Under the pieces are notes generated by a model, which saw only the letters and a program-made list of their open reading frames with translations, ran no database searches and was not told the origin of the DNA. This document shows, piece after piece, positions 3,281-43,470 of a stretch of 64,000 nucleotides of DNA; within the stretch, counting starts at the first letter, position 1; every line of letters starts with the position of its first letter. The DNA comes from Betaproteobacteria bacterium HGW-Betaproteobacteria-7 (GTDB lineage Bacteria; Pseudomonadota; Gammaproteobacteria; Burkholderiales; Rhodocyclaceae), in the NCBI GenBank assembly GCA_002840765.1, contig PHCE01000015.1:1-64000 (forward strand), in the 5' to 3' direction. The position numbers were made by a program, and so were the translations under genes.

Positions 3281-3818
3281 GTTCCAGCGGCAGGCCGGCG
3301 GCGACCAGCGTCACCCGGTCGCAGACGGCAGCAACGCGCTGATTCAACCGCCCCTGCTCGTCGGTGAACAGGCGCGATAGCGGCTGCATCGGCACGATGC
3401 CCCAGCCGACCTCGTTGGAAACCAGGATCACTTGTCCTGGCAATTGCGGCAGAGTTTCGATCAGCGCGGTGGCTTCACCGGCAAACAGCGGGCAGTCGAT
3501 GGCCTCGCCGGCTTCGGCCTGCGCGGCCGCCTTGCCGGCGAACAGCAGGTTGGAGAGCCACAGGGTCAGGCAATCGACCAGGATGCAGGTATCGGGGGCG
3601 GCCAACTCGCGTAAACGGATCGCCAGATGCAGGGTTTCCTCGGCGCAGCCCCAGTCGGCCGGGCGGCGGGCGCGATGATGGCTGATGCGCCGGCTCATCT
3701 CGCCATCGCGCGCTTCGGCCGTCGCCAGGTAGATGACGCGCCGGCCAGATTCCGCCGCCCGCTGTTCAGCCAGCAGGCTCTTGCCCGAACGGGCACCGCC
3801 GAGGATCAGTTGTTTCAT
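3255..3818 (-). CDS. cobU: Bifunctional adenosylcobinamide kinase/guanylyltransferase CobU/CobP
   Basis: CobU phosphorylates adenosylcobinamide and then transfers GMP to it, giving AdoCbi-GDP for CobS. The Walker A motif GGARSGKS sits right at the N-terminus. The guanylylation region is visible as HHRARRP, with the expected histidines (ISHHRARR). [10 protein letters not shown] and [10 protein letters not shown] are family signatures. The start at 3818 ([14 protein letters not shown]) is preferred; a start three codons upstream at 3827 is also possible. It has no strong Shine-Dalgarno. The gene runs opposite to cobQ, with overlapping 3' ends, and is divergent from the second riboswitch. Confidence 0.93.
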
Positions 3819-3859
3819 CGGCGGCATTGTGGGCGAATCCCGGCCTCCGCCGCAACCGG

Positions 3860-3865
3860 TATAAT
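3860..3865 (+). promoter_or_regulatory. Candidate -10 element of the cobT-cobS-cobC promoter
   Basis: A perfect TATAAT lies just before the cobT riboswitch aptamer, so transcription would begin at about 3872, near the aptamer's 5' edge. I see no convincing -35 element upstream, where the sequence is GC-rich. Confidence 0.5.
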
Positions 3866-3867
3866 CG

Positions 3868-4032
3868 GCCGCGATTCGATATCACGGAACACGGTGCAAA
3901 TCCGTGGCGGGCCCGCCGCTGTAATCGGGGACGGTTGTCGCGAAATGCCACTGCTGAAGGGGAAACAGACCCGGCGGGAAGGTGCGGCGAACCGGCTGAT
4001 CCGAGAGCCAGAAGACCTGTCGGATCGTGGCA
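3868..4032 (+). promoter_or_regulatory. Cobalamin (AdoCbl) riboswitch upstream of cobTSC
   Basis: The leader holds CACGGTGCAAATCCGTG, GCCCGCCGCTGTAATCGGGG, a CCACTG segment, GGGAAGGTGCGG and a B12 box GAGAGCCAGAAGACCTG in the canonical order. About 80 nt separate the B12 box from the cobT start. This is the second B12 riboswitch within 2.5 kb, facing the opposite way to the first. Boundaries are approximate. Confidence 0.92.
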
Positions 4033-4112
4033 ACAGGAAGCCTGGGGATAGGGTTTCGCGGTGGCATTTGGACAGGTGCCGGCGCGAGGCCCTTCTGCTA
4101 TTGGAGAAGCGG

Positions 4113-5162
4113 ATGCATTCAAAATTCAAGATCGTCGCCCCGGACCAGGGCCTGGTCGCTGCGCTGCAGCACAAGATTGACCAGAAAACCAAGCCGCGCG
4201 GCGCACTCGGCCAGCTGGAAGCCGTCGCCCGGCAGGTCGGCCTGATCCAGCAGCGTCTCGACCCGCAGTTTGGTCAACCACACATGCTGGTCTTTGCCGG
4301 CGATCACGGTGCGGCGCGGGCCGGTGTTTCGGCCTTTCCGCAAGACGTGACCTGGCAGATGGTCGAGAACTTCCTCGCCGGCGGTGCGGCGATCAACGTT
4401 TTCGCTCGGCAGAACGGCCTCCATCTGGCCGTCATCGACGCCGGCGTCGCCCATGACTTCGGCCGGCGACCGGGCTTGATCCATGCCAAGGTGGCGCCCG
4501 GTACGGCCAACTACCTCGAGCAATCGGCAATGACCGTCGAGCAGTGCGAACTGGCGATCACGCGCGGCGCCGAAATCATTCATAACCTGGCGCTCAATGG
4601 CTGCAATGTCGTCGGTTTTGGCGAAATGGGCATCGGCAATACGGCGTCGGCTTCACTGATGACCCATTGTCTGACCGGTGTGCCATTGGCTGATTGCGTC
4701 GGCCGTGGCACTGGCCTGAACGATGCCGGGCTGGCGCGCAAACAGGCTCTGCTCGAACAGGCGCTGAACCGCTATCGCAACGGCGGTGGCGGCAACGCGC
4801 CGCTGGCCGTGCTGGCCGAGTTCGGCGGCTTCGAGGTGGCGATGATGGTCGGTGCCATGCTGGCGGCGGCGGAAGCGAAGATGCTGCTGCTCATCGATGG
4901 GTTCATTGTCGGCGCTGCGGCGCTGACGGCGGCGAAGTTGTTCCCGGCGCTGACCGATTACTGCGTTTTCTGCCACCGCTCGGCCGAGTCGGGGCATCAG
5001 GCCCAATTGCAGGCTCTGGGGGCTGAACCGTTGCTCGACCTCGGCCTGCGCCTCGGCGAAGGCACCGGCGCCGCACTGGCTTTCCCGCTGGTGCAGGCCG
5101 CCGTTGGCTTCCTCAACGAGATGGCCAGTTTCGAATCGGCCGGGGTGGCGGACAAGGCGTGA
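4113..5162 (+). CDS. cobT: Nicotinate-nucleotide--dimethylbenzimidazole phosphoribosyltransferase CobT
   Basis: CobT makes alpha-ribazole phosphate from nicotinate mononucleotide and DMB, activating the lower ligand of B12. The frame is open well upstream, but the ATG at 4113 follows a GGAG at 4103-4106 and gives [14 protein letters not shown], so I chose it; upstream codons fall in the riboswitch. Diagnostic stretches are [40 protein letters not shown] and the catalytic glutamate in [13 protein letters not shown]. It has 349 residues, as expected. Its TGA overlaps the cobS ATG by one base (TGATG), so it is first in a coupled cobTSC operon. Confidence 0.95.
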
Positions 5163-5923
5163 TGCTGCGCCGCGAACTGGAGTATTTCCTCGGCGCCATC
5201 CGTTTCTTCACCCGCCTGCCGGTACCGGCCTGGGTCGGGCATTCGGCCGAGGCGCTGAACGGCTCGGCCCGGTACTTTCCGGCGGTCGGCCTGGTCGTCG
5301 GTGGCCTCGGTGCCCTGGTTTATCTGGCTGCGTTGCAGTTGTGGCCGCAGCCGGTGGCCGTGCTGCTGTCCATGGCGGCCACCATCTACGCCACCGGCGC
5401 CTTCCACGAGGATGGCCTGTCGGATGCTGCCGACGGTCTCGGTGGTGGCTGGGACAAGCTGCGCATCCTGGAAATCATGAAGGACTCACGCGTCGGCAGC
5501 TACGGCGTGGTGGCCTTGTGGCTCGGGCTGACCGGCAAGTTCGTGCTGCTCGCCGCACTCGATCCGACGTTGGTGCCGTGGGCGCTGGTCGCTGGTCACG
5601 CCGTGTCGCGCCACGCCTCGACGCTGCTGCTGGCGACCATGGACTACGTGCGTGAAGACCTGCAGTCAAAAGCCAAGCCGCTGGCGACGCGGCTGTCGGC
5701 CAGTGCGCTGCTGGCAGCGACATGTTTCGCCGTCCTCGGCCTGCTGCCGCTGCCCTGGCCGCAGTCCCTGGCCGGCTGCCTGCTGGCGGCCCTGACCACG
5801 CTCTGGCTGGCGGCCAAATTCCGCCGCTGGCTGGGTGGCTATACCGGCGACTGCCTGGGTGCCGTCCAGCAAGTCGCCGAAATCGCCTTCTATCTCGGCC
5901 TGCTGGCGCAGTTGCCGGGATGA
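5162..5923 (+). CDS. cobS: Adenosylcobinamide-GDP ribazoletransferase (cobalamin synthase) CobS
   Basis: CobS is an integral membrane enzyme that joins AdoCbi-GDP and alpha-ribazole (phosphate), the last committed step of B12 assembly. The family core FHEDGLSDAADGLGG with KDSRVGSYG is present, flanked by several hydrophobic helices. The ATG at 5162 overlaps the cobT stop; a GTG at 5159 would add one residue. About 253 residues, normal length. It overlaps cobC by 4 bp (ATGA). CobS, CbiB, CobU and CobC together cover nucleotide-loop assembly in this window. Confidence 0.94.
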   Translation: MLRRELEYFLGAIRFFTRLPVPAWVGHSAEALNGSARYFPAVGLVVGGLGALVYLAALQLWPQPVAVLLSMAATIYATGAFHEDGLSDAADGLGGGWDKLRILEIMKDSRVGSYGVVALWLGLTGKFVLLAALDPTLVPWALVAGHAVSRHASTLLLATMDYVREDLQSKAKPLATRLSASALLAATCFAVLGLLPLPWPQSLAGCLLAALTTLWLAAKFRRWLGGYTGDCLGAVQQVAEIAFYLGLLAQLPG

Positions 5924-6429
5924 TCCTGCACCTGATCCGCCATCCGCGGCCATTGATCGCGCCGGGGATCTGCTACGGCGCACTCGACGTGCCGGCTGAG
6001 GATGCCGCGGCGGTCGCCGCCGTTCTGCTCGCCGAACTGCCACCGGGCCTGCCGCTGTGGAGCAGCCCGCTGCAACGTTGCCGCGGCCTGGCGGCGGCGC
6101 TGCATGGCCAACCCTTGTTCGACGAGCGCTTGCAGGAGATGAATTTCGGGGCCTGGGAGGGCCTACCGTGGGACGAGATTCCGCGCGCCGAAATCGACGC
6201 TTGGGCCGCCGACGTGGCTGGCTACGCCCCGCCCGGCGGCGAATCCCCGTGGCAACTGCAGCAGCGCGTGCTGGCCTTCATTACCACGCTGCCGGTGGCG
6301 GAGGCGGTGCTGGTCACCCACGCTGGTGTCATTCGCGTATTGCAGGCCGCGCAGTCGGGCAGCAGCCTGGAGGCTGCGCTGGCGTGCCGCCCAACTTATG
6401 GCAGCCGCCTGGTGCTGCATTGGCCGTAA
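5920..6429 (+). CDS. cobC: Alpha-ribazole phosphatase-like histidine phosphatase CobC
   Basis: CobC belongs to the histidine phosphatase superfamily and removes the phosphate from alpha-ribazole phosphate or adenosylcobalamin phosphate. The protein is 169 residues. The N-terminal phosphate-accepting histidine is in LIRHPRP (most relatives have RHG or RHT), followed by CYGALDVP, WSSPLQRC, the acid residue in EMNFGAWEG and the second histidine in VTHAGVIRV. It starts inside the cobS stop codon and is last in the riboswitch-controlled operon; 114 bp follow before the next gene. Confidence 0.88.
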   Translation: MILHLIRHPRPLIAPGICYGALDVPAEDAAAVAAVLLAELPPGLPLWSSPLQRCRGLAAALHGQPLFDERLQEMNFGAWEGLPWDEIPRAEIDAWAADVAGYAPPGGESPWQLQQRVLAFITTLPVAEAVLVTHAGVIRVLQAAQSGSSLEAALACRPTYGSRLVLHWP

Positions 6430-35839: not shown

Positions 35840-36191
35840 GTCCGCCCCGTCACCGGACTCGCCGAAGCCTTGAAGGGCAGCGGCAACGTGTAGTCGTTGG
35901 CGTCCGGCGCGTTGCATGAAGTGCTACAGTGACCGCATATCAATCCAACCGTCGCCTGACTTTGCTGATTGTTGCGGTCTCAGCGGCTACACGGGGGGCG
36001 GTGACTTTCTAGTCAAGGACCGTAAGCAGTGGGTGAAGATCACCCGACAGGATTTTCTCAAGTTCAGGATCATATTCGCATCTAAACGCTGGATATCTCG
36101 CTGCAGGATTTGAGCGACGATGTCGTGGCCGTGACGCCTTTTTTCACATACACCTGCCACTTGCAGACCATGGTTCAGGAGCACATTGGAC
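35840..36191. other. Intergenic stretch, no gene supported
   Basis: About 350 bp lie between two small hypothetical genes. Short open frames exist (for example 35916-36113, 65 codons, on the plus strand), but none has a good ribosome site or recognisable sequence. No repeat or structured RNA was evident to me. Confidence 0.5.
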
Positions 36192-36470
36192 ATGACGACC
36201 AGAATCACTGTAGTCGCTGGCGATATCAGGATCGGCGATATCATCTACAACGGCCTTGGCACTAGCAAACACCCAACTGATACTTGGGAAGCAATCACCG
36301 AGGTCAATTCGGTGGATGGACTGATTCAGCTGATTACGGGGCGTCTCGACGGCCCCCACGGCGAATTCTGGTTCGAGCCAGAAGAATCCGTTGTCGTGAT
36401 TCGCCACCCACCGGCAGAGCCCGAACCCGTTGTAGAAAAGCCCCATAACAAGCGGGCTCACGGCCATTAA
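36192..36470 (+). CDS. Small hypothetical protein
   Basis: This 92-residue protein is not recognised. It starts at ATG 36192 (MTTRITVVAGDIRIGD); a TTG at 36186 would add two residues. The core looks like a small beta-rich domain (DIIYNGLGTSKHPTDTWEAI, GEFWFEPEESVVVIRHPP) and ends in a Pro/Glu, then Lys/His-rich tail (NKRAHGH). No signal peptide. It could be a cassette-type gene in this accessory stretch, but I found no convincing recombination site beside it. Confidence 0.5.
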   Translation: MTTRITVVAGDIRIGDIIYNGLGTSKHPTDTWEAITEVNSVDGLIQLITGRLDGPHGEFWFEPEESVVVIRHPPAEPEPVVEKPHNKRAHGH

Positions 36471-36503
36471 GACCGTTTGTTGGCTGTACCACGCTCCGCC
36501 GGC

Positions 36504-36995
36504 CTACTTCACGCCCTGTCCCTGATAGGCCGCGCGTATTCGCTCCATGCGTTCCCGATTTATGCCGAAATCCTCGCGCCCCAGCCGGCTGGCGCTGCGG
36601 ACTTCGATCACCCCTGCCTGCGGGTTGAGCCAGAACTCCAGATCGTCGACGAAGCGTAGCCAGCGGGTGCTGGCTTCAACGCGCAGGTAGTCAGGCCGCT
36701 GCTCGATGATGGTGAGCTCCGGCATGGCTGCCAGAGTCGCCTGCAGAGTTTGCAGCGAGGCGCTGGCATCGCCGTTTACCAATTCCAGCGGCGCGATGCG
36801 TGCATAGTCGAGTTGCGGATGGCCGGGATACAGCGCCGCCTGGCTGCTGACGCTGTTGCGGGTCGCTGAGGGCGGTTTCAGGCGGCCGTCGGTGACGCCG
36901 AGATCGTTCGGCGGGGAGCCGGCGAAAAGACCGAAGCGGGCGCCGATCAGGATCAGGACGAGCAGGCCGAGGAGGACGTAGAGGATTGTTTTCAT
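36504..36995 (-). CDS. DUF1499 family lipoprotein-like/membrane-anchored protein
   Basis: The 163-residue protein starts at ATG 36995 with a hydrophobic N-terminal segment (ILYVLLGLLVLILIGARFGL) that may anchor it in the inner membrane. The remainder (DLGVTDGRLKPPSATRNSVS, TIIEQRPDYLRVEASTRWLR, FVDDLEFWL and VIEVRSASRLGREDFG-NRER) matches DUF1499. The function of the family is unknown. The gene is divergent from the PAP2 gene, with about 240 bp between starts. Confidence 0.85.
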   Translation of the reverse strand: MKTILYVLLGLLVLILIGARFGLFAGSPPNDLGVTDGRLKPPSATRNSVSSQAALYPGHPQLDYARIAPLELVNGDASASLQTLQATLAAMPELTIIEQRPDYLRVEASTRWLRFVDDLEFWLNPQAGVIEVRSASRLGREDFGINRERMERIRAAYQGQGVK

Positions 36996-37237
36996 CGGTC
37001 TGTCAGGAGTTTTTCGCGGGAAACAGTGTGCCGCGGCAGATGCCGGAGCAGGAGTACGACACGGCGGGCCGGCCAGCGGTTCCCGCGGTGGCGCGGAAAA
37101 CAACATCGGCATTTTTATCCAGCCCGATCAATCCCTTCACGCCGATTGAACGTTATCCTGCAAAGCGGTCGAACCTGTCGAGTTTTATGACGCGGGAGCT
37201 GGCATCAAATGCTGTGGATGACTTGTTGGAAAGGATC

Positions 37238-37927
37238 ATGACGCGCTCTGCTCTTGCGATCAGCCAGGAAGAAACGCCGACAGCCTGGCACCGCCAGGTG
37301 GCAGCAGTGTTCTTCAAACATGGCTATCTCAAGGGCGTGGGAACGACTGTTTTCATCACCCTGTTCTTCAACCTTTACTTCTATTTGCTGAAGAACCCGG
37401 TTTTTCCGATAACGGTCATGCCGCTCACCTGGCTTGACCGTCAGATCGACCTCCAGCCCCTCGCCCTGCCCATATATCTCTCGATGTGGGTCTATGTTTC
37501 CCTGGTTCCCGGCTTGCTGGCGACGCGCCGCGAGCTGGGGTTCTACGCAATGGCCATTGCCGCCACCTGTCTGGCCGGACTGCTCGCCTTCTACCTCTGG
37601 CCGACGACAGTACCCGCCGCGCTGGTCGACTGGACCCGCTATCCCGAACTGGATTTCCTGAAAAACATCGACGCCTCGGGCAATGCCTGCCCTTCGCTGC
37701 ACGTCGCCGCCGCGGCTTTCTCCGCGGTCTGGCTCCACCATCTGCTGCGCCGTTTTGGCGGGCCACTGTGGATACTGAGCCTCAACTGGGCCTGGTGCAT
37801 CGGCATCGCCTATTCGACGATCGCCATCCGCCAGCACGTCGCCCTGGATGTCCTGGGTGGGCTGGCATTGGGTCTGCCGGCTGCCTGGCTATCCTTGCGG
37901 TTTCGGGGATTGGCGATAGCTCAATAG
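37238..37927 (+). CDS. PAP2-superfamily membrane phosphatase/transferase
   Basis: The 229-residue protein has about five to six transmembrane helices and the PAP2 signature: DASGNACPSLHVAAAAFSAV (C2 motif, SxH) and TIAIRQHVALDVLGG (C3 motif, H-x3-D). The usual C1 KxxxxxxRP is not obvious. The ATG at 37238 follows GGAAAGGATC; an in-frame ATG at 37187 is also possible. PAP2 relatives act on lipid phosphates, undecaprenyl pyrophosphate or, in inositol-phosphoceramide-synthase-like members, transfer headgroups. There is no operon partner. It precedes the TIR-CHASE2 gene by 306 bp. Confidence 0.82.
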   Translation: MTRSALAISQEETPTAWHRQVAAVFFKHGYLKGVGTTVFITLFFNLYFYLLKNPVFPITVMPLTWLDRQIDLQPLALPIYLSMWVYVSLVPGLLATRRELGFYAMAIAATCLAGLLAFYLWPTTVPAALVDWTRYPELDFLKNIDASGNACPSLHVAAAAFSAVWLHHLLRRFGGPLWILSLNWAWCIGIAYSTIAIRQHVALDVLGGLALGLPAAWLSLRFRGLAIAQ

Positions 37928-38233
37928 CTGTTGTCGCCGAGTCAGAATGTGACCTCACAGTCCAGGGAATAAAGCTCGGGCAGCTAACTGCCAAAGCTGC
38001 CTCGACCCGGCCAACCCGGGCCCTTCAGTATTTAACGAGAGCAAACGAAGGATCGCCCTGGTCGCGCCCTTGCAGCGAGGTTCATGACCGGTATCTGAAC
38101 TTGCCGATCATCTGTAGCTCCAATGGGCAAATGCCATGCGGAGGGAATGCCGTTCATGATCAAAAAAACACATGATGTCGTCCCATTGAACGGTGGTACC
38201 GAGCCGCCGCGTTAGCGGTGATGTTCGCGCCCT
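37928..38233. other. Intergenic stretch before TIR-CHASE2 gene
   Basis: About 300 bp with no supported gene. A weak 5-bp GC hairpin (CCCGG/CCGGG) lies near 38010. The promoter of the TIR-CHASE2/FecR operon should be here, but no clear -35/-10 pair was seen. Confidence 0.45.
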
Positions 38234-39928
38234 ATGCCAAACGTTTTCATCAGCTATCGCCGCGATGACAGTTCCGCGACCGCCCAGATTCTCCACGACC
38301 GGCTTGCTGCATGGTTTGTGCGCGACCAGGTGTTCTTCGACCTGAACGGGATTGCCCTGGGAGAGGATTGGCGCCGGCTGCTGACGGAACGGTTGGCGGA
38401 TTACGACATCGTGCTGGTGGTCATTGGTCCGGCCTGGCTGGCCGCGCTGGCGGCGCGGGCGAACGGTCCAGATGACGACCTGGTCCGCTGGGAGGTTGCC
38501 GAGGCGTTGCGCCTGCGCAAGCGCGTCATCCCGGTGCTGATCGACGGCGCAAGCCTTCCCGCAGCGGAACAACTGCCCTCAGATGTCGCCGAACTCGGAC
38601 GTCTGCAGGCCGAAACGCTGCATCGTGACACCCGCGACCGCGACATCGCTGCCCTCGCCGCCGCGCTTGAAGGCGGCGGCCTCGTTGATTTCGTGGGCAA
38701 GCTCAAACAAGTGCTGCGCCTCGGCAAGGCGGGCATTGGCGTTGCTGCCGTCGTGGGTGCAGCGGCGCTGTCGTTCGCCTGGGTCAATCTGTTCGATCTG
38801 CTCGGACTCGATACGCGGAGCGCGAGCTTTACCATGCTGCTCGGTGATGTGCTCGTCGAGCCGGTGCTTTCCGATCGTCTGTTGCTCGTCGCCATCGCAC
38901 CGCACGCCGACGAAACGACGCGTCTGTCGAGCGCCCGCCGCAGCGAATATGCGCGACTCATCACCATCGCCAGTGAACGCCAGGCCGAGGCGATTGCCTT
39001 CGATATCACCACCGACCAAGCGAGTCCTGCCGATGCTGCCCTGCTCGCTGCGGTGCGGGTGGCGCGGCGTGAAGGGACGCGGGTCGTGTTCGGTTTCAAG
39101 GCGCTGACTCCGGGCGGAGATCCCGTCGCGCTGCCCGGACTGGCCGAAGCGGGCGCCGTGCTCGGCCTGACCTGCATCGGCCAGAAACTTGATAACGCCG
39201 TGCTCGGGACGCTCGCCATGCACAGCGGCAAGCGCACTTACGGATCGTACGCGCTGCACGCCGTCGCTGACGCGACCAGCATCGCGCCCATTCCACGGAG
39301 CGAAAAATCACTGCAGCTGCGCCACGCGACGGGTGAATCCAGTGTTCCATTTTCGCTGCGCGAAACGGTCGACCGCAGCGATCGCGACTGCCCCGGCCGC
39401 CCGCCGGGAGCAGAAATGGCGCGTCTGATTTTTCCGGTTTCGCACCGTGAGCGACTGCGTGAACCCGTTCGGCGGGTCGACGCCGCAACCCTGCTTGCCG
39501 AGCCGGGCGCCCCCGGCAGCTGGCGCGGCAAAATCATTGTCGTCGGCGTCACGCATCCGCTCGATGTCCTGCAGACGCGTCTCGACCGGGCCGGCCCCCA
39601 GCGCTATGGCTTCGAGTTTCAGGCCGACACCGTCAATGCCCTGCTGACCGGAGCCATCGTCAAACCAGTGGGCTTTCTCGCGCAGTGGTTGCTGGCGCTG
39701 GCGATGGTGCTGGCCGCCATCGCCTACCGCCTGTGGCGGGTCGGCAAGTCACGGCGGCTGGACTTTGCCGTGCTGCCGCTGGCCATCGGCGGCTATCTGG
39801 CCATCATGGTCTTGCTCTACAGCAAATTCGGCTTGCTCATCGACGGTCTTTATCATCTGGCTGCCTTTATCGTCACCTGGTGGGTGCTGGCGGCATTGGA
39901 AAAGAGGTGGTCACATGCCAGAAATTAA
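38234..39928 (+). CDS. TIR-CHASE2 membrane protein
   Basis: The 564-residue protein has an N-terminal TIR domain (about 1-145: NVFISYRRDDSSATAQILHD, VFFDLNGIALGEDW, and E87 in RWEVAEALRLRKRVIPVL at the position of the NADase glutamate). A transmembrane helix (about 163-185) leads to a periplasmic CHASE2 sensor (LLLVAIAPHADETTRLSSAR, AEAIAFDITTD). Three more helices close the protein, the usual CHASE2 ending. CHASE2 normally drives cyclases, kinases or phosphatases at its C-terminus. Here a TIR sits at the N-terminus instead. The last 14 bp overlap a FecR-domain lipoprotein gene. It is a possible envelope-sensing NAD hydrolase or NAD-signal generator, which is inference. Confidence 0.88.
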   Translation: MPNVFISYRRDDSSATAQILHDRLAAWFVRDQVFFDLNGIALGEDWRRLLTERLADYDIVLVVIGPAWLAALAARANGPDDDLVRWEVAEALRLRKRVIPVLIDGASLPAAEQLPSDVAELGRLQAETLHRDTRDRDIAALAAALEGGGLVDFVGKLKQVLRLGKAGIGVAAVVGAAALSFAWVNLFDLLGLDTRSASFTMLLGDVLVEPVLSDRLLLVAIAPHADETTRLSSARRSEYARLITIASERQAEAIAFDITTDQASPADAALLAAVRVARREGTRVVFGFKALTPGGDPVALPGLAEAGAVLGLTCIGQKLDNAVLGTLAMHSGKRTYGSYALHAVADATSIAPIPRSEKSLQLRHATGESSVPFSLRETVDRSDRDCPGRPPGAEMARLIFPVSHRERLREPVRRVDAATLLAEPGAPGSWRGKIIVVGVTHPLDVLQTRLDRAGPQRYGFEFQADTVNALLTGAIVKPVGFLAQWLLALAMVLAAIAYRLWRVGKSRRLDFAVLPLAIGGYLAIMVLLYSKFGLLIDGLYHLAAFIVTWWVLAALEKRWSHARN

Positions 39929-40673
39929 GGGGTCGGCAAGAACGGTCGCGGCGCTTCTCGCCCTCTGCATCGTCAGCCTGATCGCCGGCTGCGCCGGTGC
40001 CTCATTCAGCCTCGGACCATTGAGCTTCGATGCCTCGCAACCGCGGGGGGGAACACTGCTTTATGCCGACCCAGGCGTGACGGTCACCCGGAGTGGGCAA
40101 GGAATCATCCGTTATGAACCGGGCATGGATTTGGTGAGCGGCGATACCATCGAAACCGCCGATGGTCAGGCTGTGATCGATTACGCCGACGGCAGCGCGG
40201 TCATCCTGAACCGCTCGACGCGTCTCCAGCTCGGCTCGATCACGCTGTTTTTTGGGGAGCTTTTCGCCCGGGTCAAGAGCATCGCGACGCGTGGCGGCGG
40301 CCAGGTGGTGACCAATGAACTGTCGGCATCGGTGGAGGGAACCGAATACGGTGTTCGCCGCGATCTTCCGGCAGCGAATGCCGGGTCAGGCAATGTCCAG
40401 GTTTACGTGCGCGAGGGCCGTGTGCTGTGCACGCCGAGCGCCCGTGCCCGCTGGTCGCCGATTTCGATCACCGCAAATCAGGCGTTCGAGGTCGTCGGCT
40501 ATCGCGCCCCGCCGGCGGCACGCCTGGTCGACGCGCGAACCCTGTCGCGCTGGGCCGACGACGCCGAGCGACGCCTGCGAAAATCGCGTACTCCGGAAAT
40601 TCGCCCCGGGATCATGGTGCCGATCGGACCGGCTATGCCGCGCCCGAAGCCGCGTTACGATAGTCCGGGTTAA
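39915..40673 (+). CDS. FecR-domain lipoprotein
   Basis: The 252-residue protein has a lipoprotein signal (LALCIVSLIAGC, lipobox Cys 26), so it should be anchored to a membrane on the periplasmic side. The FecR domain follows: YEPGMDLVSGDTIETADG, AVIDYADGSAVILNRSTRLQ, GGGQVVTNELSASVEGTEY and VQVYVREGRVLC. FecR domains are often encoded next to CHASE2 proteins. The 14-bp overlap with the TIR-CHASE2 gene means coupled translation, and the FecR protein could be the ligand or regulator of the CHASE2 domain. The tail (IRPGIMVPIGPAMPRPKPRY) is Pro/Arg-rich. Confidence 0.88.
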   Translation: MPEIKGSARTVAALLALCIVSLIAGCAGASFSLGPLSFDASQPRGGTLLYADPGVTVTRSGQGIIRYEPGMDLVSGDTIETADGQAVIDYADGSAVILNRSTRLQLGSITLFFGELFARVKSIATRGGGQVVTNELSASVEGTEYGVRRDLPAANAGSGNVQVYVREGRVLCTPSARARWSPISITANQAFEVVGYRAPPAARLVDARTLSRWADDAERRLRKSRTPEIRPGIMVPIGPAMPRPKPRYDSPG

Positions 40674-41117
40674 CGGAAGCCGAGCGCAGGGGGTATTCGG
40701 CATGTTCGAGGCCACGCGCTATCTGCCCGGGCTGCTTTGGCCGGTAGGGCAAAGCCACCCACGGTAGCTTGGTAAAAGCATTGGATTCGGGGTAACGGCC
40801 GCTTTGGAGAATGCTGACTGGCCGAACTGGTCGCACTCGTGCCTGGGGGAATGGCAGCTTCCGGGAATCGGATTGTTTACTGGCTACTTTCTGGCGTTGA
40901 ATCTGAAGAGATGAGTGTTGTTTCGGTGCCCTAAGCAGAAACTACCAGCTCGGAGAAGCGGACCTTCAAGAACGTTAAAGGTGAGAGGCGCGGAGCCAGC
41001 TTGCCGGCGTAGCGCCCCCTTCCCAGCGGCGAAGCCACGCTGCGACCGCAGTGTTAGGTGTCGAACTTCCAGAATACCGACAGTCTTAGCGATGTAGGGC
41101 GCACGGCAGCATGCCCC
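40674..41117. other. Intergenic stretch with an imperfect dyad
   Basis: About 440 bp have no supported gene. Around 40978-41030 an imperfect inverted repeat (GGTGAGAGGCGC against GCGCCCCCTTC) is followed by GTTAGGT at about 41052, which fits the GTTRRRY consensus of an integron attC right end. A matching left core (RYYYAAC) was not found, so I do not call an attC site. Confidence 0.35.
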
Positions 41118-41894
41118 CTACAAGGCTGCTTCTTCATCTTCAGTCAAGAGTAGATCTATTTGCGCTTTCAGGCGCGCTTTGTCGGATGAGTAGAAGGGGC
41201 TCGGTATCAACAACCAAGCACGCCGCCCGCCAGGTAAGCGTACGGGGATTCGATCATGATCAACGTCATCTCCGGTAAGTCCAGGTCGTGCTGCGCTCGC
41301 TGGCTGCAGCTCATTAGCCAACTGTTGTGAAGGGTAGTTGTAGCCAAGAATCTGGGGGGCTGATTCGTTTTGCTCTTCGGGAGCGTGGTCTGCCTCCGCT
41401 AAAGCTGGGAAATCGCTCTTGCGCTCGTAGAAGCCGACAAACTCGACAGATCGCTTGAAAGCTGACAACACTGATTCGGCTGCCGCAGGCGCAAATCCTC
41501 TTTGGATGAGCTCGTATTTCAAATTGGCGTCTGACGGCAATCCGGACTCATATTTTTCGAGTAAATCTGAAAAAAGTGGGGGCTGGCGTAAAAACTTCAC
41601 TAATAAAGAGCTGCGCAGCTCCTCGTTTGGCGCAAACCGAAACGACTCTACTTCCTTGGCGACAGCAAGCAACCCTTCCTTGGGGCGATCGAGTAGTCCG
41701 TAATATCGTAAGGCGGCCAAGGTCGATAGCGCGGCCCCGTTGTTAGCGCTCTTGTAGCCAATATTCTGAGCGACGACTTGTGTTGGTGCTGGATGCAAGC
41801 GTTCCTTGTCGTATGCCTTTAGGGCACGATCGAGCGCTTCATCTAAAGCAATCGAAGGTGCGCGAGGGCTTTTTTTGCGAGGAGATTCAGCCAT
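41118..41894 (-). CDS. Hypothetical protein, AT-richer accessory gene
   Basis: This 258-residue protein is not recognised. It starts MAESPRKKSPRAPSIALDEA at ATG 41894 (another ATG at 41906 is possible; neither has a clear ribosome site). The first half looks helical and winged-helix-like (AQNIGYKSANNGAALSTLAA, LRYYGLLDRPKEGLLAV). The C-terminus (HDRIPVRLPGGRRAWLLIPS) is a short beta-rich part, followed by an acidic end (LLTEDEEAAL). Base composition is less GC-rich than the flanks. It is divergent from the winged-helix/nucleotidyltransferase pair across a very AT-rich 290-bp region, so it may belong to the same mobile unit. Confidence 0.7.
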   Translation of the reverse strand: MAESPRKKSPRAPSIALDEALDRALKAYDKERLHPAPTQVVAQNIGYKSANNGAALSTLAALRYYGLLDRPKEGLLAVAKEVESFRFAPNEELRSSLLVKFLRQPPLFSDLLEKYESGLPSDANLKYELIQRGFAPAAAESVLSAFKRSVEFVGFYERKSDFPALAEADHAPEEQNESAPQILGYNYPSQQLANELQPASAARPGLTGDDVDHDRIPVRLPGGRRAWLLIPSPFYSSDKARLKAQIDLLLTEDEEAAL

Positions 41895-42091
41895 GATCAG
41901 ACTCATTTTGAAATTGATACCGCAGATTTTGTCGCAACAACAAGTTTGTGTAAACACATACCAACTAAACTTAATCTAATAAACTCTTTAATAAACTTAC
42001 GTTGTAAAAATTTCAATTAAAAAAAGACTGTATAACAATTATGATGACGTTTGATGCGAGAAAAATTGGAGCAATAATCTAGACATTCGTA

Positions 42092-42101
42092 ATTCGCGAA
42101 T
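42092..42101. promoter_or_regulatory. Upstream palindromic operator of the toxin-antitoxin-like pair
   Basis: ATTCGCGAAT is a perfect 10-bp palindrome, repeated exactly at 42154-42163. The two centres are 62 bp apart, about six helical turns, so bound regulators would face the same side of the DNA. Confidence 0.65.
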
Positions 42102-42143
42102 AGCGATTGTTCGTATTTCATTGGGTTTCGACTACTATGTGAT

Positions 42144-42166
42144 AATATTCGCCATTCGCGAATATT
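42144..42166. promoter_or_regulatory. Promoter-proximal operator of the toxin-antitoxin-like pair
   Basis: AATATTCGC and GCGAATATT form a 9-bp inverted repeat with a 5-bp spacer, which contains the second ATTCGCGAAT. It overlaps a -10-like GATAAT at 42141-42146 and lies 23 bp before the first gene's ATG. That fits autorepression by the winged-helix protein. Confidence 0.65.
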
Positions 42167-42188
42167 GAATGGTGCTGCGAGGTCGTTC

Positions 42189-42713
42189 ATGGAAAAGCAA
42201 CCAACGCTAAAGCCGCAAGATTTACTGGTGGCGCTCAAGATGGCTGCAAATCCGCAGCGAGAATTCACGTATTCAGAGCTGGCGAGTGAGCTCTTTATGT
42301 CTGCCTCAGAAGTGCATGCCTCAACCAGGCGTGCCGAACTCTCCAGGCTTTTGAGTCGGCCCGATAAGGGCGTTGCACCGATCCGCCATGCGTTACTGGA
42401 GTTCCTGATTCATGGTGTGAAATTCGTCTTTCCTGCAGTCTCTGGACCTCTGACGCGAGGGATTCCGACCGGTGTTGGCGGGCCGGTGTTAAGTCGTCTA
42501 TTTGAACAGGGTGATCCACTCGTCCCGGTTTGGCCAGATCCGGAAGGTTCGGTCAGGGGAATAACGATTTGTCCAATTTATCCCTCTGTGCCAGCAGCCT
42601 GCCGCATTGATGACAAACTGTACGAACTGCTGACCCTGCTCGATGCAATCAGAGGCGGAGCTGCTCGGGAGAGAGAGTTGGCAGAAAAGATTCTAATGGA
42701 GCGCCTTGGTTGA
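42189..42713 (+). CDS. Winged-helix protein, probable antitoxin/autorepressor
   Basis: The 174-residue protein starts at ATG 42189 after a GAGG six bases upstream. The N-terminal half is helix-turn-helix-like: KPQDLLVALKMAANPQREFT, YSELASELFMSASEVHASTR, RAELSRLL. The C-terminal half has VKFVFPAVSGPLTRGIPTGV and ICPIYPSVPAACRIDDKLYE and may bind the partner or a ligand. It overlaps the nucleotidyltransferase gene by 4 bp. In AbiE-type systems a winged-helix antitoxin precedes an AbiEii nucleotidyltransferase toxin and represses the operon through inverted repeats; gene order and the operators match that plan. No direct homology to AbiEi can be claimed by eye. Confidence 0.75.
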   Translation: MEKQPTLKPQDLLVALKMAANPQREFTYSELASELFMSASEVHASTRRAELSRLLSRPDKGVAPIRHALLEFLIHGVKFVFPAVSGPLTRGIPTGVGGPVLSRLFEQGDPLVPVWPDPEGSVRGITICPIYPSVPAACRIDDKLYELLTLLDAIRGGAARERELAEKILMERLG

Positions 42714-43390
42714 GCAGAGATCCAAATATCGTCTCGGTAGAGCTGGTTGCTAGGGCGCTGGGTTCGCTGACTGACGATCTTGTTTTGGTTGGCGGCTGTG
42801 CAGTCGGTTTGTTGATTACCGATACCGCCGGGCCACCAATACGCGCCACTCAGGACGTCGATCTTGTGGCGGAGGTCGCTACTCTGGGTGACTACTACAA
42901 GCTGGCTGACCAGCTAAAGGAACGAGGCTTTCGTGAAAAGGGCGACATCATATGTCGCTGGTGCAAAGGACCTCTGGTTGTTGATGTGATGCCTGCGAAG
43001 GAGCTTCTTGGGTTCTCCAATAGCTGGTATCCGCTAGCGATTCAGGATGCCCGCCAGTACAGATTTAAGGATGGAAAAACAATCAATGTGATATCAGCTC
43101 CGTTGTTTGTTGCCACAAAGCTCGAGTCCTTCAACGGAAGAGGCAACGGTGACTATGGGCATCACGACATCGAAGACATTATCTCTCTGGTCGATGGTCG
43201 TCCGGAGTTGTGTAGTGAGATCGAGCAGTGTGATGAAGTCGTACGAGAGTTTGTCAGACAGGAAGTCGACGATCTACTGGCGGATGCTGCCTTTGTGGAA
43301 CACCTACCATGGCATTTGCATCCCGATCAGGCGAGCCAGGCGCGCCTTACGCTTATCATCGAGCGATTGCGAATTCTTGCAGGTCTCTGA
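42710..43390 (+). CDS. Nucleotidyltransferase, AbiEii-like (probable toxin)
   Basis: The 226-residue protein has the polymerase-beta-type nucleotidyltransferase core: VLVGGCAVGLL, then TQDVDLVAEV (the DxD metal site) and GPLVVDVMPAKELLG with the third acid. Later stretches (VATKLESFNGRGNGDYGHHD, IEDIISLVDGRPEL) match the AbiEii/AbiGii group, which includes toxins that nucleotidylate tRNA or other targets. The start is TTG at 42710, inside the stop region of the preceding gene (TTGA), so toxin translation is coupled to the upstream gene. Base composition matches that neighbour and differs from the paa genes. Plausible role: abortive infection or element maintenance. Confidence 0.82.
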   Translation: MSRDPNIVSVELVARALGSLTDDLVLVGGCAVGLLITDTAGPPIRATQDVDLVAEVATLGDYYKLADQLKERGFREKGDIICRWCKGPLVVDVMPAKELLGFSNSWYPLAIQDARQYRFKDGKTINVISAPLFVATKLESFNGRGNGDYGHHDIEDIISLVDGRPELCSEIEQCDEVVREFVRQEVDDLLADAAFVEHLPWHLHPDQASQARLTLIIERLRILAGL

Positions 43391-43424
43391 AGGTGGCTAT
43401 TGCATCTTCTGTGTAGTTGCGGCG

Positions 43425-43448
43425 CCCGGACAAAATTCCCGGGTTTCT
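43425..43448 (+). terminator. Possible terminator after the nucleotidyltransferase gene
   Basis: CCCGG and CCGGG form a 5-bp stem with a 9-nt A/T-rich loop, followed by TTTCT, 35 bp after the stop. The stem is short. Confidence 0.35.
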
Positions 43449-43470
43449 ACCTCGTAACGCCTGCCATCAA

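Follow-up and report, generated by a model that had tools for sequence, protein, structure and literature searches.

The 64,000-nucleotide stretch of contig PHCE01000015.1 from Betaproteobacteria bacterium HGW-Betaproteobacteria-7 (hereafter the window) carries two overlapping forward-strand genes, the first encoding a membrane protein with an N-terminal TIR domain and a CHASE2 sensor domain, the second a FecR-domain lipoprotein. We give roughly even chances to the reading that they form a two-gene trans-envelope signalling module, in which the FecR lipoprotein and the CHASE2 sensor would control NAD+ cleavage by the TIR domain. The evidence comes from the anatomy of the two proteins, the conservation of a glutamate at the catalytic position, a SARM1-like predicted fold, co-inheritance of the TIR–CHASE2 protein with its lipoprotein partner and tree patterns of the transfer type.

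The initial annotation had described a TIR domain, a membrane helix, a CHASE2 domain and three end helices, together with a FecR lipoprotein gene overlapping by 14 bp, and all of these elements are recovered by open reading frame (ORF) calling, Pfam matches above the curated cut-offs (TIR_2, CHASE2 and FecR), an AlphaFold2 model and a lipobox. The first gene (38234..39928, +) encodes 564 residues. Its TIR domain (TIR_2, PF13676, E 5.4e-12; residues 4-132, 38243..38629, +), predicted to be cytoplasmic, is followed by a first membrane helix (residues 166-190, 38729..38803, +; hydropathy peak 163-192), by a CHASE2 domain (PF05226, E 1.9e-14, 54.3 bits against a Pfam cut-off of 26.3; residues 177-493, 38762..39712, +) predicted to be periplasmic between membrane helices 1 and 2, and by three C-terminal membrane helices (481-502, 508-532 and 538-563; 39674..39922, +). 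The AlphaFold2 model (mean pLDDT 81.9; input alignment of 17 sequences, the window's included) displays a TIR-like alternation of strands and helices at the N-terminus, a low-confidence linker (148-167), the helix 166-190, an alpha/beta region to about residue 472 and the three closing helices; model and hydropathy together predict one membrane helix before CHASE2 and three after it. The protein stops after the third of these, so that no output domain lies C-terminal to CHASE2 and the output candidate is N-terminal. Because this layout is reversed, the protein is not assigned to the usual CHASE2 sensor kinases or cyclases. The second gene (39915..40673, +) has an ATG at 39915, before the end of the first, and encodes a 252-residue lipoprotein with a lipobox, LIAGC, whose cysteine is C26, and a FecR domain (PF04773, E 1.9e-7; residues 77-170, 40143..40424, +) that was recovered again in the scan of its own genome. 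Its model, built from 11 sequences (mean pLDDT 80.0), comprises a helix (7-27), an all-strand domain (46-194), short helices (207-224) and a low-confidence tail.

Proteins of this layout form a family of patchy distribution. Counting the window's own genome, full-length matches occur in 4 of 60 relatives (G000, G021, G024, G051) and in 4 of 399 genomes of the order (G000, G051, G428, G540), while the own genome is the single hit among 369 class genomes and again among 398 phylum genomes; at most three candidates per genome were scored in the class and order scans and four in the phylum scan, so that misses are possible. A wider scan of genome contigs yielded 18 loci with full-length relatives. 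After merging, 21 loci carry a CHASE2 domain of this type, and in 20 of them a TIR domain lies N-terminal in the same ORF (the contigs of L071, L073 and L082 also appear as L005, L007 and L006 and enter the count a single time). The named sources are Azonexus, Dechloromonas, Accumulibacter, Gallionellaceae, Chromatiales and gammaproteobacterial bins, an uncultured proteobacterium and Desulfonema magnum. All 17 homologues scanned have CHASE2 at E<=0.001, and the TIR and CHASE2 trees of the 20 proteins are congruent (Mantel r 0.90), as expected of one old fusion. The CHASE2 part also has a signature of its own: C314 (39173..39175, +) and C386 (39389..39391, +), both in the predicted periplasmic part, are present in 20 of 20 proteins and are in each the sole two cysteines within residues 196-495. 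A likely disulfide between them is suggested by this pattern; in none of 24 other CHASE2 proteins (25 rows, of which L037 repeats L001) does the part of the reading frame from residue 60 to 370 contain two cysteines. The window's own genome contains three CHASE2 matches.

E87 (38492..38494, +), placed at the NADase position by the initial annotation, indeed stands opposite SARM1 E642 in a profile alignment. Its conservation held on checking: a glutamate occupies this column in all 20 TIR–CHASE2 proteins, including ones down to 27% identity to the window's (L073, which has ambiguous bases, L063 and L064 were left out of alignment A5 and are counted in the glutamate and cysteine tallies). The TIR part fills both lists of fold matches in the PDB, its predicted fold is SARM1-like, and the closest solved TIR domains by sequence are NAD hydrolases. 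The likeness to SARM1 and related TIR NAD hydrolases thus concerns fold and glutamate position; SARM1 differs in having ARM and SAM domains and no periplasmic sensor. Altogether, the alignments support E87 as an NADase-type glutamate. A different reading, in which the TIR domain would be a scaffold that recruits proteins on clustering without cleaving NAD+, can appeal to scaffolding as the usual TIR role according to PMC7075850. We regard it as distinctly unlikely, as both the invariance of the glutamate at such low identities and the NAD hydrolase nature of the nearest solved TIRs argue against it. The resemblance to the Thoeris TIR proteins consists of the TIR domain and weak profile matches. 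The ThcB4 model scores 43.6 bits, far under its NCBIfam cut-off of 220, and the PADLOC ThsB-type model, which has no stated cut-off, gives 27.4 bits (E 4.1e-7) over 67 residues only. To our knowledge, neither family contains CHASE2, and no ThsA-type effector is found among the 25 of 61 PADLOC families listed for 108 neighbour proteins.

The coupling to a FecR protein, also proposed in the initial annotation, is borne out across the family: a FecR-domain gene adjoins 18 of the 20 TIR–CHASE2 genes, lies elsewhere in the genome for one and was not found for another, whose gene is at a contig end. In five loci fecR is downstream and overlapping, by 14 bp in the window, L067 and L068 and by 4 bp in L082 and L064 (with starts chosen by us); in L069 it is downstream after one gene, in 11 loci upstream on the same strand with gaps of 46-133 bp, and in L084 convergent. 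The exception with a partner elsewhere is L080, where the FecR lipoprotein is on another contig and pairs with the partner of L084 in the tree. FecR and TIR–CHASE2 tree distances correlate over 19 pairs (r 0.92, with 0 of 9,999 permutations as high). Among TIR loci without CHASE2 from the same searches, this FecR is found in 0 of 48 (44 distinct genes; 49 loci minus L031, a TIR–CHASE2 piece, with L039, L052, L053 and L059 repeating L009, L021, L025 and L029). Among 31 loci of other CHASE2 genes, the FecR profile gave two weak matches (L120, L124); this sample (L001, L002 and L116-L144) is a non-random one of the best-scoring CHASE2 matches plus those of the own genome, with flanks of at most about 1.5 kb, and published kinase-type FecR–CHASE2 pairs may be under-represented in it. 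FecR is best known as an iron-citrate regulator, which, together with the one genome in which no partner was detected, could suggest that the lipoprotein is an unrelated neighbour, present by chance or for iron regulation. Such an explanation is highly improbable in view of adjacency in 18 of 20 loci in four arrangements, the matching trees and a total of just three FecR matches in the own genome. No sigma factor was found above the Pfam cut-off among the nine proteins scanned in the window stretch; the other loci were not searched for one.

The lipobox has no Asp after the Cys in any of the 18 linked FecR partners. Since, under the +2 rule, a lipoprotein without Asp after the lipobox Cys is directed to the outer membrane, the FecR lipoprotein is probably located there. 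As to what it might detect, the partner in L084 runs on from its FecR part (21.1 bits, under the Pfam cut-off of 24) into PASTA repeats (seven stretches, E 3.6e-88), and L114 reads by eye like the same FecR–PASTA protein. PASTA and LysM are both peptidoglycan-binding types. The state of the peptidoglycan or envelope is the favoured cue, by analogy, because of the PASTA repeats in these partners and the LysM domain of a published CHASE2-kinase partner (PMC5192318, in the part available); the same source states that the signals of CHASE2 domains are not known.

In the model that we propose, the TIR–CHASE2 protein would sit in the inner membrane, with its TIR domain in the cytoplasm and CHASE2, with its conserved cysteine pair, in the periplasm, and the FecR lipoprotein, probably in the outer membrane, would reach or bind CHASE2. 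Disturbance of the envelope or peptidoglycan, by phage entry, a contact-delivered weapon or other damage, would alter the contact between FecR and CHASE2 and cause the TIR domains to cluster. The clustered domains would then cleave NAD+, either draining it or producing an NAD-derived signal, with growth arrest or death as the outcome. Several points weigh against this proposal. An intact glutamate alone is no proof of NADase activity, and the outer-membrane placement of FecR depends on the +2 rule. The window FecR protein itself has no PASTA or LysM match in the Pfam scan. The FecR profile has no match anywhere in the genome of L063 (G428, 98% complete), in which the TIR–CHASE2 gene ends 42 bp from the contig end. 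Shared ancestry inflates the Mantel correlation between FecR and TIR–CHASE2 distances, and the control of TIR loci without CHASE2 has short downstream cover for long genes. Among the PADLOC and Pfam families listed for the neighbours (25 of 61 and 25 of 129), none could be recognised as a second effector. Lastly, the closest relative, L067, could be a misplaced contig in its bin, an alternative to recent transfer that makes the transfer argument weaker.

That argument starts from the trees. In both of them, the window pair stands apart from the pairs of its own genus and groups with L067 (Gallionellaceae bin), L068 and L069 (Chromatiales and gammaproteobacterial bins); the TIR–CHASE2 protein of L067 is 81% identical to the window's, against 35% for that of L071 (Azonexus, own genus). 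At the DNA level, the block 38158..40632 (+), which includes 76 bp upstream and nearly all of both genes, is 80.6% identical between the window and L067 and is the sole blastn match at E<=1e-10 in the 8,545 bp of L067. The tree patterns point to transfer of the TIR–CHASE2/fecR pair. Furthermore, the pair lies in a variable stretch (window about 35850-43470), because two other genomes, G026 and G1154, have different genes there between flanks that match: their DNA match to the window breaks off at about 35.85 and 33.15 kb, respectively, and resumes at about 43.47 kb. Read by eye, G026 has a HipA-like gene and a small HTH gene in this interval, and G1154 has transposase-like genes. A tRNA-linked insertion was considered and rejected, no tRNA or tmRNA being present in the window, as was a viral origin, two scans of viral contigs having returned no full relative (L062 matched residues 1-110 only).

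TIR NADases of bacteria have roles in defence, and a special case of the proposed module would be anti-phage or anti-competitor defence, with invasion as the trigger and suicide by NAD+ loss. The patchy distribution, the tree patterns of transfer and the position in a stretch that differs between relatives are consistent with it, as is the presence, 1.5 kb downstream of fecR, of two overlapping genes (42165-43390, +) matching the PADLOC candidate-defence pair PDC-M21A/B (E 1.8e-41 and 4.5e-61), where GC is about 51% over 41-43 kb. The wider neighbourhood argues the other way. Rough longest-ORF calling gave 183 genes in 21 stretches, or 154 once L078, L065 and the TIR–CHASE2 genes are dropped. 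Of these, 108 were scanned, a set that excludes the FecR genes, the short ORFs and some genes that were distal or at an edge. Among the families listed, the commonest PADLOC matches are mad3 (6) and RTasHel/GajB (4). The RTasHel/GajB proteins are probably ordinary UvrD helicases, of which Pfam also finds four; the other commonest Pfam families are ABC transporter (6), SMC_N (5) and DUF599 (4). These families do not add up to a recurrent defence island and include no consistent third partner that could be recognised, and the flanks of L068, L069, L080 and L084 are housekeeping by eye. In addition, there was no match in 50,697 phage records, and only the TIR part matched in plasmids, in 4 of 72,556 records. 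With neighbours listed mostly of housekeeping types, an anti-phage role is a guess, and we consider the defence special case possible and rather doubtful. Upstream of the TIR–CHASE2 gene in G428, a caspase-like gene (L063 2448-3206, -) was noted by eye.

The claim of the initial annotation that no system with this layout had been described was too strong. In the parts of the sources available to us, both the topology of an N-terminal effector joined to CHASE2 and the pairing of FecR with CHASE2 genes are already described with other outputs (PMC3501461, PMC5192318, PMC9239204). The metacaspase–CHASE2 protein of Trichodesmium erythraeum (PMC3501461, also PMC2853523) has, like the window protein, an N-terminal cytoplasmic effector, one helix, CHASE2 and three C-terminal helices; its effector is a caspase-like protease rather than TIR, and those excerpts mention no FecR partner. 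The BiofilmReg operon (PMC5192318) likewise has a FecR gene next to that of a CHASE2 membrane protein in which one helix precedes the domain and three follow it, and differs in its C-terminal histidine kinase, its response regulator gene and the LysM domain on the FecR protein. In Campylobacterota, a CHASE2 adenylate cyclase is clustered with an FecR-domain outer membrane protein (PMC9239204), there with cAMP output and in a cluster of four genes that includes a phosphodiesterase and a TPR protein. The EACC2–caspase proteins (PMC8195603), which have a C-terminal CHASE2 variant, also join a conflict-type effector to a membrane CHASE2 receptor domain, unlike the window protein in their caspase effector and TRADD-N two-gene neighbourhoods. 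In the openly licensed literature, seen in part, no description of TIR–CHASE2 or of TIR with FecR was found; architecture listings in protein databases may well have it.

These relatives suggest a further alternative, non-lethal envelope homeostasis, in which a TIR-made NAD-derived messenger or a mild drop in NAD+ would adjust metabolism or cell-wall processes, in the way that CHASE2 cyclases act through cAMP. It is in line with the CHASE2/FecR modules that have a biofilm-linked kinase (PMC5192318) or adenylate cyclases clustered with a phosphodiesterase (PMC9239204), as described in the available parts of these sources, and with L078 of Desulfonema magnum (3405-6128), the twenty-first locus, in which a protein kinase domain takes the place of TIR. 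Among the families listed, the pair has no recognised recurrent neighbour that could act as a downstream effector or break down a signal, and we hold this alternative to be unlikely. The L078 protein has no TIR by profile (it is excluded from the 20, and its TIR columns in the conservation alignment are forced and ignored), and its CHASE2 groups with that of L082 in two trees (support 0.94 and 0.92). An output swap between TIR and kinase within this CHASE2 clade is suggested by trees that are rooted on L078 itself or at mid-point and in which the outside CHASE2 set is not monophyletic. By eye, L078 also has a cyclase-like N-terminus joined to the same CHASE2 type.

Membrane TIR receptors may be numerous in bacteria, with the window protein as one of them. 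Of 48 loci rows for the closest TIR relatives beyond the family, 40 (by our hydropathy threshold, repeat rows included) have an N-terminal TIR and a hydrophobic stretch past residue 120. Pfam finds FGE-sulfatase in three of ten such proteins (L009, L022, L025), PASTA in one and no other domain above cut-off in six. The PASTA protein (L046 1501-3569), with five C-terminal PASTA stretches (E 6.6e-59), might be a TIR receptor that senses peptidoglycan directly. L021 and L029 (own genome, C20 and C10) and others combine an N-terminal TIR and a membrane-type helix with varied C-terminal parts.

For known bacterial TIR defence systems, the sensing of invaders is mostly placed in the cytoplasm. If the proposed module is real, the pair would instead subject a TIR NADase to a sensor in the periplasm and to the lipoprotein inherited with it. 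On a bolder and tentative view, it would be a bacterial counterpart of a Toll-type receptor, in which an outer-membrane lipoprotein detects an envelope breach at attack, relays it via periplasmic CHASE2 and fires a SARM1-like TIR NADase at the inner face of the inner membrane, the sensor pair being mobile between lineages as a self-contained unit and related sensors having kinase, caspase or cyclase outputs. Suicide by NAD+ loss would then be linked straight to the sensing of the envelope. The two genes would offer a testable model both for the coupling of envelope damage to NAD+ loss and for communication between FecR and CHASE2, and would support CHASE2/FecR as an interchangeable sensor fitted with different outputs.
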